Source: Chlorobaculum limnaeum
GTDB lineage: Bacteria; Bacteroidota; Chlorobiia; Chlorobiales; Chlorobiaceae
NCBI RefSeq assembly: GCF_001747405.1
Contig: NZ_CP017305.1
Span: 1,630,001 to 1,694,000 of the forward strand
DNA length: 64,000 nucleotides
Reading direction: 5' to 3'
Under the pieces are notes generated by a model, which saw only the letters and a list, made by a program, of their open reading frames with translations, made no database searches and was not told the DNA's origin. This document shows positions 4,147 to 61,488 of this stretch, one piece after another; the stretch's first letter is position 1, and each line of letters opens with the position of its first letter. A program made the position numbers and the translations under genes.

Positions 4147-4950
4147 TCAGCGCTTCGGGGCGGGAAAGCGACGTTTCATGAACGATTTCGACTTGAGATC
4201 GTAGATTTCAAACCCGCTTCCGTCAAAAAGAAACCGACCGTAGGCTTTGACCTCCCACGAGAGATTGCCCGAGCGCTTTTCGCTCCATATCGTTTTTCCC
4301 TGCTTGTCAATCAGCACGAACGCCATGTTGCCCGTGCCATACTTCGAGGTGGCCGCAAGCGTGTAGTCGCCGTTGACGCTCACGCAGAGATAGTCGATCT
4401 CCGGCAATCCGGCTTTCGCAGACCAGAGACGGCGGCCCTCGGCTGCATCGAAAAGCGTGATCCATGAGCCGTCCCGCCCGTTCTCGCCGATGGCGATGCG
4501 AGCGCCTTCGGGAGAGATGGCTGTCCGGCAAACCCAGCGCAGGCTTTCGCTGCCGCCGTCGTTCCGGAAAACGATCTGCCGGAGCGCTTTGCCCTGGCCG
4601 TTGTAGAGGGCGATGCCGCTGGAGCCGCCCTCGTCGCGCCAGCCCCAAAGCGGCAGCGTGATGAGTTCACCGTTGTCCGACACCGCCGCGCCGCCAGGCC
4701 CGGTCATGAGCGGATCGCTCCATATCTCCTTGCCATGCTTCTTCAGGCTCCACGAGGCGAACGGATTTCCGTAGGTGATCGCCACTTCCCAGACGCCGTT
4801 GTCGGAGAAAAAGGAGTCCGTCTTGCCGACCGGATCGGCCATGCGTTCGGCCATTCGCGCCGGGACTTCGGCGGGCAGGAGAAGCAGAAGGCACAAAACG
4901 GCTGCGAAAAGAGGCCAAATGGCGTTCGGGCGGAGGATGAAATTACGCAT
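4147..4950 (-). CDS. Exported hypothetical protein, beta-propeller-like, behind the radical SAM gene
   Basis: From the ATG at 4950 the product has 267 aa. It starts MRNFILRPNAIWPLFAAVLCLLLLLPA, a signal peptide or anchor. The mature part has repeated blade-like strands (SDNGELITLP, SPEGARIAIGENG, GSWITLFDAAEGRRLW, FVLIDKQGKTIWSE), as in WD40/PQQ-like propellers. A GTG at 4980 would add ten residues, but the ATG puts the hydrophobic segment at the very N-terminus. The start overlaps the end of the radical SAM gene by 8 bp, which implies translational coupling and a functional link with that enzyme. The specific role is unknown; a periplasmic partner or receptor of the modified product is one possibility. 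Confidence 0.75.
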   Translation of the reverse strand: MRNFILRPNAIWPLFAAVLCLLLLLPAEVPARMAERMADPVGKTDSFFSDNGVWEVAITYGNPFASWSLKKHGKEIWSDPLMTGPGGAAVSDNGELITLPLWGWRDEGGSSGIALYNGQGKALRQIVFRNDGGSESLRWVCRTAISPEGARIAIGENGRDGSWITLFDAAEGRRLWSAKAGLPEIDYLCVSVNGDYTLAATSKYGTGNMAFVLIDKQGKTIWSEKRSGNLSWEVKAYGRFLFDGSGFEIYDLKSKSFMKRRFPAPKR

Positions 4951-6127
4951 GTTCGTGGAGTTGAGGTTCGGGAAGCTCACCGGGATCGATCAGTTCGACG
5001 ACCGATTCGAGGTACTCGAAAAGCAGTTGCTTGCCCGCGCAGAGCGAATCCTTTTCGGCGATGTTCCGACCTCCGCTGGCGATGAAGGAGAAGTAGGGAC
5101 AGCCCGCATTGCAGAGGTACCGAAAGCGACACGCCTCGGCTTCGCAGGCGGCAGTGGCCTCGAGGCGCTGGTCGATCAGCCGCGACATGGCCGGGTTGGC
5201 GACGGCGAGAATATCGGGCATCGCCGTCTCGCTGACGTTGCCGAGGCGCATCGCGTCGAAGCCCGCGAACTTGGGGCAGAGCCAGGCGTCGCCGTCGGGC
5301 GTGATAGCGAGAAAGTTGGTGAGGCAACGCCCACCGAAGGTGCAGACCGATTGCTTCAGCCCGACGCCCGCCACCAGCGAACGCAGCACGTAGTTGAGCG
5401 TGCCAGGCATCGGCAGCTTTCGCCCGCCCTCGAACCAGGCGTTGAACTGGGCGATGAAATAGGCGGCGTAGCCGTCGGCATCGAGCGAGAGGCTTTCGTC
5501 ACCGACGAGGTTCTCCGAAAAATAGTGGTACGGATTGCTGTGAAAAGCGTCGATGCCGAGCGAACGGTAGAAATCGAGAATCGCCCCCTCCTTGCCGAGG
5601 CTGTTCTGCGTGACCGTGCAGATGCAGCCGCAGTGCCCCTGATGCTCGATGATCGTTTCGCGCGTCTCGAGCACCGAGGCAAGCGATAGGCCGCCGCCGC
5701 TGGCCGGGCGCTGGAAGTCGTGCAGCTCCGGGGGGCCGTCGATGGTCGATGAGATGTGGAAGCCGTGCGCGGCGAGCCAGACGATCAGCTTCCGGTCATG
5801 CACATAACCGCTCGTCTGGATGGTGTTCGCGTAGGGTTTGGTGGCGTACTGTTTCTGGAGACGATCGACCTTGCGGTAAAAATCGATTCCGGCAAGAAAT
5901 GGCTCGCCGCCCGTCCACTCGAAGGAAACCTCGCAATGGCGTGTATCGAAGGCGCTCCGGATGGCGGCTTCGAGCAGGTCGTCCGGAATGCGGAGGCTCC
6001 CGGTTTTGTGGGAGCCTTTCGCAAAGCAGTAGCGGCACGAGAGCACGCACTGGTCGGTAAGCTGAAAAATCAGGTTCAGCGTGCCCGCCTCTTCGAGCAT
6101 GTCGAGAAACGCCTCTCTCGTCGTCAT
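4943..6127 (-). CDS. Radical SAM/SPASM peptide-maturase-like enzyme
   Basis: The protein has 394 aa. The radical SAM cluster motif is CVLSCRYC (C27, C31, C34). It is followed by SFEWTGGEPFL (the GGE motif) and STIDGPPELHDFQR, typical of anaerobic sulfatase maturase-like and peptide-modifying SPASM enzymes. The C-terminal SPASM region has CTFGGRC, a lone Cys in DAWLCPKF, and CEAEAC-RFRYL-C-NAG-C plus a final Cys, which should bind two auxiliary 4Fe-4S clusters. No sulfatase gene is visible. Twelve bases upstream ends a small exported protein with a repetitive His/Asn/Asp tail, so a RiPP maturase acting on that tail is the best inference. GAGG eight bases before the ATG serves as ribosome site. 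Confidence 0.9.
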   Translation of the reverse strand: MTTREAFLDMLEEAGTLNLIFQLTDQCVLSCRYCFAKGSHKTGSLRIPDDLLEAAIRSAFDTRHCEVSFEWTGGEPFLAGIDFYRKVDRLQKQYATKPYANTIQTSGYVHDRKLIVWLAAHGFHISSTIDGPPELHDFQRPASGGGLSLASVLETRETIIEHQGHCGCICTVTQNSLGKEGAILDFYRSLGIDAFHSNPYHYFSENLVGDESLSLDADGYAAYFIAQFNAWFEGGRKLPMPGTLNYVLRSLVAGVGLKQSVCTFGGRCLTNFLAITPDGDAWLCPKFAGFDAMRLGNVSETAMPDILAVANPAMSRLIDQRLEATAACEAEACRFRYLCNAGCPYFSFIASGGRNIAEKDSLCAGKQLLFEYLESVVELIDPGELPEPQLHEHA

Positions 6128-6139
6128 GCCGCGCGCCTC

Positions 6140-6535
6140 TCAGTAACGGTTCGCGTCACCGTGCGTGTTGGTGTGCACGTTGCCGTGGGAGTTTGTGTGC
6201 TTGCCGCTGTCCGAATAATCACTGTGAACATTGGGGCTGTTGCTATCGACATGGGTGTTCCCGTGCAGCGGATTGTCCTTATCGGCGAGCAATACGCCGC
6301 CCGGATTGGCCGTGATCTCCGTGAGATGCCGCGCCACTTCGTTCTCCCGCGCGGCGTCGGATGCGAATGTTGGCGTCGCGCCGTCGCGCGTCATCGCCGA
6401 GGCGTTCACGCCGCAAAAAAGCAGCAGCCCCGCCGGAATGGCGAAGCCAAGCTTCTGGCTGATGGCAAGCAGGCGCTCGCCCCTGGCCGGTCTGGAACGA
6501 CGCTCCCCTTCCGGCCTGTCGATCTCTCTGTTCAT
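6140..6535 (-). CDS. Putative RiPP precursor: exported small protein with His-x-Asn/Asp repeat tail
   Basis: The ATG at 6535 follows AAAGGAG at five bases; a GTG at 6541 is less likely because it overlaps that site. The product has 131 aa. A basic N-terminus (about 28 residues) precedes a hydrophobic LGFAIPAGLLLFCGVNASA segment that looks like an export signal. A short spacer follows, then a low-complexity tail (residues 91-131). In the tail all seven His are followed by x-Asn or x-Asp (HGN, HVD, HSD, HTN, HGN, HTN, HGD), and YSD makes an eighth unit. It sits 12 bp before the SPASM gene. Aromatic/His-x-Asn/Asp/Ser units are the substrates of cyclophane-forming SPASM enzymes (GrrM, HxsB type), so I infer a precursor. 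I did not match it to a named family. Confidence 0.75.
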   Translation of the reverse strand: MNREIDRPEGERRSRPARGERLLAISQKLGFAIPAGLLLFCGVNASAMTRDGATPTFASDAARENEVARHLTEITANPGGVLLADKDNPLHGNTHVDSNSPNVHSDYSDSGKHTNSHGNVHTNTHGDANRY

Positions 6536-7978: not shown

Positions 7979-8244
7979 GATCAAACAAAGCCGGTTGGAT
8001 GGAGCAATCAAAACTGACTTGCGCGAGGCGCTCCACGCTCCTGCTCCGCTGATGCGACTGACCTGAAAATGCGAAACCGGAAGAGGAGGCTGTAACGATG
8101 CAATCAGTTACTGATTGATCACATCAGATTGGGAAAGTGTCTTAAATAATAGCGATACACTACCTAAATTAACAGAGGACATCTATATATTCAAGGAGTG
8201 TTCTTCTATAATCTGTACAAAAAAACAATCCAAAATCCACGGTG

Positions 8245-8544
8245 ATGAAAAAAGTATTCAGCATGCTGCTCCTGTTTGCAGTTTCAGGAGCACTCGCGTC
8301 CGCGAATCTGCATGCGGGTGGCGCATTCGATCAATTGATGGATACGTCGAGAGACAGTGAAGCCGCCACGAGAGAGCCGAGCGACGAAGGCGCGAGGGAA
8401 GGCGCGAGCCAGGGATTCGACACCGGGTCGAGCACCCCTGTCGATCTGAGCGGCAAGGAAGGGGTCGTCGATCCGAATGACCTGAAGAGGTACGACCCGC
8501 CCGCGCAGAGCCTCCACACCAATCCGCCGCCGCCACTACCCTGA
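8245..8544 (+). CDS. Small exported hypothetical protein, 99 aa
   Basis: It starts MKKVFSMLLLFAVSGALASANLHAGG, a clear signal peptide. The mature 75 residues are polar, acidic and glycine/serine rich and end in a proline-rich LHTNPPPPLP. There are no Cys and no known domain. A GTG lies just upstream of the ATG; I prefer the ATG. It is divergent from the 338-aa exported gene and shares the 270-bp AT-rich spacer with it. It carries one HTN triplet like the precursor described at 6140-6535, which may be coincidence. Confidence 0.6.
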   Translation: MKKVFSMLLLFAVSGALASANLHAGGAFDQLMDTSRDSEAATREPSDEGAREGASQGFDTGSSTPVDLSGKEGVVDPNDLKRYDPPAQSLHTNPPPPLP

Positions 8545-61280: not shown

Positions 61281-61312
61281 TGTCGTTGATTTTCCGGCAT
61301 CCCCATTACCTA

Positions 61313-61381
61313 TGGACACGGTGCCAAAAGCTCTCGCGCGGGATTCGTCCCCGGAGCTTGCCGAAAGGCTTCCCGTGTCCA
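61313..61381 (+). promoter_or_regulatory. Candidate structured leader RNA of metK (three-way junction)
   Basis: The closing stem is TGGACACGG/CCGTGTCCA (9 bp). Inside it, AAGCTC/GAGCTT carries a tip GGGA-TTCG-TCCC, and directly beside it GCC-GAAA-GGC forms a small hairpin. The TTCG and GAAA tetraloops are the stable types seen in functional RNAs. It lies 26 nt after the predicted start and 107 nt before metK. It matches none of the SAM riboswitch classes I can recall, so its function is inferred from position. Confidence 0.55.
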
Positions 61382-61488
61382 GTCTGTCCCTCCACGACAT
61401 TCACCCTCACGAGAACACCGTTTCGGCAATTCCGCCAGACGCCCGCAGTTCTTGTCTGTTCGATTAACAAAAAACCGAAAGGGAAACC

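Follow-up and report, generated by a model that had tools for sequence, protein, structure and literature searches.

A putative two-gene RiPP cassette pairing a SPASM radical SAM enzyme with an exported-type His-x-Asn/Asp repeat protein in Chlorobaculum, Bacteroidales and a Deltaproteobacterium

Two adjacent genes of Chlorobaculum limnaeum appear to form a RiPP cassette, in which a radical SAM/SPASM maturase would crosslink the repeated H-x-N/D units (and a YSD unit) of a small precursor and the modified chain would be exported; we give this reading a probability of about 0.6. The genes lie in a window of 64,000 nucleotides (contig NZ_CP017305.1, positions 1,630,001 to 1,694,000), and the pair is common to phototrophic Chlorobi, gut Bacteroidales and one Deltaproteobacterium. 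The pair is minimal, consisting of two genes with no RRE, transporter or protease. If the reading is true, a His-Asn/Asp link would be added to SPASM chemistry, with up to 11 like reactions carried out by one enzyme on one substrate. Pfam and NCBIfam name neither gene beyond generic radical SAM/SPASM, and mining with those models would thus not name the pair.

ORF calls recovered the three minus-strand ORFs of the preliminary description, with the precursor upstream, 12 bp between its end and the SPASM ORF, and an 8-bp overlap of the SPASM gene with a propeller-like ORF if the latter starts at ATG 4950 (GTG 4980 is the alternative). The precursor has an alternative in-frame start, GTG 6541, which would give 133 aa. 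The features are:

4147..4950, minus strand: propeller-like exported protein gene (ORF from ATG 4950), judged not to be a required part
4943..6127, minus strand: radical SAM/SPASM maturase gene, 394 aa, passing the Pfam cut-offs for Radical_SAM and SPASM
5039..5344, minus strand: SPASM auxiliary-cluster Cys C262, C268, C284, C328, C333, C339, C343 and C363, from alignments
6026..6049, minus strand: CxxxCxxC motif for the SAM-binding [4Fe-4S] cluster (C27, C31, C34), invariant in 12/12
6140..6535, minus strand: precursor gene, 131 aa (ORF from ATG 6535), with homologues in 13 species
6155..6265, minus strand: core units HGN, HVD, HSD, YSD, HTN, HGN, HTN and HGD, predicted crosslink units
6335..6343, minus strand: NEV motif between leader and core, candidate enzyme recognition site, in 11/12 aligned precursors
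6395..6451, minus strand: hydrophobic signal-like leader segment LGFAIPAGLLLFCGVNASA, ending in an AxA-like site, conserved and identified by hydropathy

The precursor tail, PLHGNTHVDSNSPNVHSDYSDSGKHTNSHGNVHTNTHGDANRY, contains seven His, all in H-x-N/D units, plus one YSD, exactly the units listed in the preliminary description. Because 20,000 shuffles of the 43-aa tail never reproduced 7/7 H-x-N/D (p < 1e-4), the pattern is not due to chance. Across 13 precursors (the window copy and 12 homologues), N or D occupies +2 in 117 of 120 core His and Ser in none, while +1 is mostly T, S, G, V or A. The His-to-His step is exactly four residues in 57/107 cases, which gives H-x-N/D-x-H-x-N/D. All differences at +2 among the Chlorobaculum copies are swaps between N and D, and YSD is kept in 5/5. 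Core dN/dS in these copies is mostly 0.04–0.12, with two pairs at 0.26 and 0.39, and leader dN/dS is 0.12–0.39, values that are rough because the core is short. The core is under purifying selection. The precursors are mostly 131–160 aa long and of exported type, with 7–11 units, and neither the window precursor nor its homologues gave a meaningful Pfam or NCBIfam match.

In the leader, the L, G, I, P and L of an LGIxIPxxL segment are invariant in 12 aligned precursors, with basic residues before the segment and AxA-like sites after it. The signal-like segment proposed earlier is conserved in the alignment, and it is best called a putative export signal, as judged by hydropathy and motif. Sec-type signal peptides are described as highly unusual in RiPP precursors, and Sec use as shown experimentally for bufferins alone (PMC12452194). 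Bufferins, which are MNIO RiPPs, resemble the system described here in that the precursor carries a signal-like leader and the modified chain would probably leave through Sec, but their enzyme is unrelated, as is their Cys-based chemistry. The present pair could be a second example of RiPP release through general secretion instead of a dedicated exporter.

The 13 species with the pair comprise five Chlorobaculum-type, seven Bacteroidales and one Deltaproteobacterium, and the two genes are always adjacent. Enzyme identity to the window copy is 85–86% in the Chlorobaculum-type genomes, 46–52% in Bacteroidales and 42% in the Deltaproteobacterium. Five of 98 Chlorobia genomes, all of the window's genus, contain the enzyme, and the precursor profile matches exactly those five. 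A scan of the genome collection returned ten loci (two Chlorobiales, seven Bacteroidales, one Deltaproteobacterium); the two Chlorobiales loci are those of G003 and G017, hence the total of 13 species. The Bacteroidales loci come from Rikenellaceae, Tannerella, Prevotellaceae, Alistipes and other MAGs. A small exported-type H-x-N/D-repeat protein is encoded directly upstream of the enzyme in 10/10 scan loci, with one precursor-profile match per genome. The scan relied on short peptide patterns taken from a single sequence and may have missed more distant members. Wider sampling of the enzyme returned known members alone, at 1/393 in the order Bacteroidales, 3/250 in the family of the Alistipes-type MAG, 1/125 in the Tannerella family and 1/284 in the phylum of the delta MAG. 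The H-x-N/D family is rare. No relatives were found in the viral contigs and plasmids searched as mobile carriers, no H-x-N/D precursor occurs among the ORFs neighbouring the two next-closest enzymes (G1161 and G080), and the Bacteroidales loci share no accessory genes beyond the pair. Homologues of the enzyme without the tail protein nearby were not encountered: the two stand side by side in all 13 species. Chlorobi, Bacteroidales and the Deltaproteobacterium all retain the H-x-N/D tail. The claim of a precursor and its maturase is supported by this strict adjacency and the conserved tail.

The 11 Cys of the maturase are positioned for what would be three [4Fe-4S] clusters. The SAM-cluster and SPASM Cys are invariant in 12 aligned enzymes, save one Cys displaced in the delta homologue (L017). 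Together with an adjacent conserved precursor that has a leader and a repetitive core, the CxxxCxxC motif and SPASM Cys set are the general features of a radical SAM/SPASM RiPP maturase. The structure model (pLDDT 83.7) shows no RRE-like domain at the N terminus, where the first radical SAM strand starts at about residue 16. Its nearest folds are anSME (TM 0.74–0.77) and then ChlB, a radical SAM protein whose crystal structure includes the leader of its precursor. Of the NCBIfam profiles, anSME scores highest (164 bits against a cut-off of 349), followed by dynobactin DynA (145 against 450). Profiles of three-residue cyclophanes score 34–72 bits and none reaches its cut-off (GrrM/OscB 69/310, FxsB 34/370, YhhB 55/445, AmcB 72/425); HxsB likewise falls short at 80/370, and XyeB is not among the best profile matches. 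The named families suggested earlier for the SPASM gene were not upheld in this profile search, in which it stayed below the curated GrrM, FxsB and HxsB cut-offs, and we rejected the named cyclophane, Hxs and dynobactin families for the maturase on their cut-offs.

Among known systems, triceptide enzymes (XncB, OscB/GrrM, MscB/FxsB, YxdB, HaaB, YhhB) are alike in that a SPASM enzyme stands beside an aromatic- or His-x-x precursor. Conserved units of this type beside a SPASM radical SAM gene were found in 13/13 species (117/120 His), and the H-x-N/D motif is compatible with the class linkage of aromatic or His to C-beta at i+2. In published examples, SPASM enzymes link Trp, Phe or Tyr to the C-beta of an Asn/Asp at i+2, and for His the link runs from C2 to the C-beta of Ala or Arg; the acceptors at i+2 are C-beta of Asn, Asp, Arg, Ser and Ala, and the donors are ring carbons of Trp, Phe, Tyr and His (PMC11002830). 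The units described here bring together donors (His, Tyr) and acceptors (Asn, Asp) that are each already known. In triceptides, the Asn/Asp acceptor and the His donor are both known, but in separate enzymes; the window system differs in pairing His with Asn/Asp, in its 7–11 units, in its exported-type protein and in a maturase far below the curated GrrM, FxsB, YhhB and AmcB cut-offs. The HxsA/HxsB/HxsC/HxsD system shares repeated His-x-(residue) units and a SPASM enzyme, but the window system has no Ser at +2 and stays under the HxsB cut-off, and neither HxsC nor HxsD was matched by the pair or its neighbours (seven ORFs in all). With regard to dynobactin DynA and darobactin DarE, DynA is the highest-scoring named peptide maturase profile and dynobactin crosslinks His and Asn; however, dynobactin has one W-x-x-N and one His/Tyr link, whereas the window precursor has tandem H-x-N/D units, and neither the DynA score (145/450 bits) nor the core fits that family. 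A His-to-Asn/Asp C–C link was not reported, and no H-x-N/D RiPP family described, in the literature searched, a scope that did not include the main triceptide survey.

We infer the ring chemistry, its regiochemistry, leader recognition and Sec export from sequence, and consider cyclophane formation plausible. The enzyme, which has no RRE domain, would bind the leader directly, probably via the LGIxIP segment and/or the NEV motif, and modification would take place in the cytoplasm before export of the precursor. A 5'-deoxyadenosyl radical would abstract the C-beta hydrogen from the third-position Asn/Asp of each unit, and the C-beta radical would bond to the imidazole of the His at the first position, or to the Tyr ring in YSD, with the extra electron leaving through the SPASM clusters. 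Each unit would become a three-residue ring with the loss of 2 H, giving up to 8 rings in the window precursor and about 11 in Bacteroidales. The modified chain would then be exported via the signal-like segment of its leader, no dedicated transporter or protease being present in the cassette. As a guess, its final role may be that of a periplasmic or outer-surface His-rich array, for example in metal binding. The broader proposal of an undescribed RiPP family, with tandem (8–11) His-to-Asn/Asp C-beta cyclophanes on a long Sec-exported protein that forms a rigid His-rich periplasmic or surface chain, is more tentative, at slightly less than even odds.

A point against cyclophanes is that the maturase scores best against anSME and DynA and not against the cyclophane families. 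The same pair may instead perform another oxidative change, namely a dynobactin-like link from imidazole N to Asn/Asp C-beta, or desaturation, hydroxylation or epimerisation of Asn/Asp. DynA is the second-best profile and dynobactin has its His joined through nitrogen (PMC11002830), and sequence cannot fix the regiochemistry; against this, the conserved YSD unit offers no ring nitrogen for a C–N link, and hydroxylation or epimerisation would leave the strict His partner unexplained. We consider such a change unlikely, if still worth keeping in mind. The tail might also be an unmodified His/Asp/Asn metal-binding array, with the enzyme acting elsewhere or on another substrate. Metal binding is common among exported His-rich tails, and the +2 residue could serve as a ligand, but the tail protein is invariably coupled to the enzyme, and the exact +2 spacing and residue and the conserved Tyr unit would be unusual for a metal buffer. 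Because YSD is kept in all five Chlorobaculum, an aromatic-ring donor is favoured over a metal ligand, and the N/D exchange at +2 with an occasional Tyr at position 1 likewise seems to fit the cyclophane rule better; an unmodified array is improbable. Least credible is an anaerobic sulfatase maturase with the tail protein as a chance neighbour. anSME ranks first both by profile and by fold and has the same Cys layout, but the score lies far under the cut-off and a peptide substrate gene, rather than a sulfatase gene, always stands beside the enzyme. The catalytic Asp of anSME is the residue after the third SPASM Cys, and in the alignments this position holds an invariant Pro (Pro285), which makes sulfatase maturation unlikely. 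We rejected anSME identity on the cut-off and the catalytic residue.

The crosslinking cassette thus preferred has two genes, whereas the preliminary description had included the propeller-like third gene as a part of the system. In such a three-gene system, the propeller-like protein would be a receptor, chaperone or carrier of the modified peptide. The 8-bp overlap speaks for this reading, as does the presence of the gene beside the pair in 4/5 Chlorobaculum genomes (G000, G003, G015, G017), but G019 keeps the pair with the gene gone beside it, and no copy was observed next to the Bacteroidales and delta pairs. In Pfam, the protein gives a weak PQQ_2 match below cut-off and nothing else. The gene matches 14/98 Chlorobia genomes, four with the pair and ten without, the latter near full length in G010, G050, G081, G044, G040, G076 and G042 and partial in G007, G008 and G020. 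G010 retains the 349-aa, SHOCT, propeller and 237-aa genes in that order, and a gap of only about 280 bp takes the place of the pair; precursor and enzyme are missing together, and no remnants of the pair were found at this empty site. A three-gene system is thus very improbable; a requirement for the propeller-like protein is largely contradicted, and the protein may have a facultative role in Chlorobaculum. Since the propeller-like gene and the pair each occur without the other, we take the pair to be a self-contained cassette of two genes that were gained or lost together.

The G010 empty site lies between the SHOCT and propeller genes at about 4600–4880 of L058 (G010:C37:9000-18000), and its gap holds an inverted repeat, GGAGGCTGTCTCA...TGAGACAGCCTCC, that resembles insertion-sequence ends. 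Near the propeller-like gene, a roughly 100-aa exported-type protein (GAREGxxQGFDT...VDLxGKEGVVDP...PPPPLP) is conserved in two genera, at 8242–8544 (plus strand) of the window and L059:3866–4162 (minus strand); the window copy has no family match.

A rod-shaped RNA element of about 160–215 nt was observed upstream of the precursor in seven Bacteroidales loci. Six copies came from a covariance model (L010:4269–4445, L012:4244–4427, L013:4073–4284, L014:1608–1778, L015:4049–4228, L016:3990–4170), and the copy in L011 was recognised by eye and fold; 16 further copies are L080–L095. Its 5' AAAAGCG closes on the 3' CGCUUUUUUU, which is terminator-like. Across 22 copies, 89% of paired cells are standard, compared with 65% in shuffles, and both-sided changes occur in 51/62 pairs. 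The score for covariation is 0.61, where slid structures reach about 0.1. Fitting the alignment to the model biases these figures towards the structure, yet the difference is large. No match was found in Rfam 15. The seven Bacteroidales genomes have 2–10 matches each, a few of which are reverse-strand echoes of the rod, and 28/119 sampled Bacteroidales genomes have matches. A same-strand ORF follows within about 85 nt after nearly all of the 16 other copies read, many of these ORFs being secreted or peptide- or lipoprotein-related. The element precedes many unrelated genes and is therefore general rather than specific to the H-x-N/D cassette. It is a candidate for a new leader or attenuator RNA class and is possibly more novel than the H-x-N/D pair.

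Downstream of one copy (L092, G105:C14), 49–3023 nt away, lie genes for two Cys-rich proteins with RREFFKRAAK leaders, followed by a radical SAM gene and then by another gene that is SPASM-like; these constitute another putative RiPP cluster led by this multi-copy RNA element. Between RNA element and precursor, two genomes of Alistipes type also encode a conserved lipoprotein of 50 aa, SCTPE-YEAFWDGYNYGLTGDESVFDD (L015:4299–4451 and L016:4242–4394). A different RNA, SAM-Chlorobi (RF01724), was identified at 61295–61382 of the window on the plus strand, with 82 bits.
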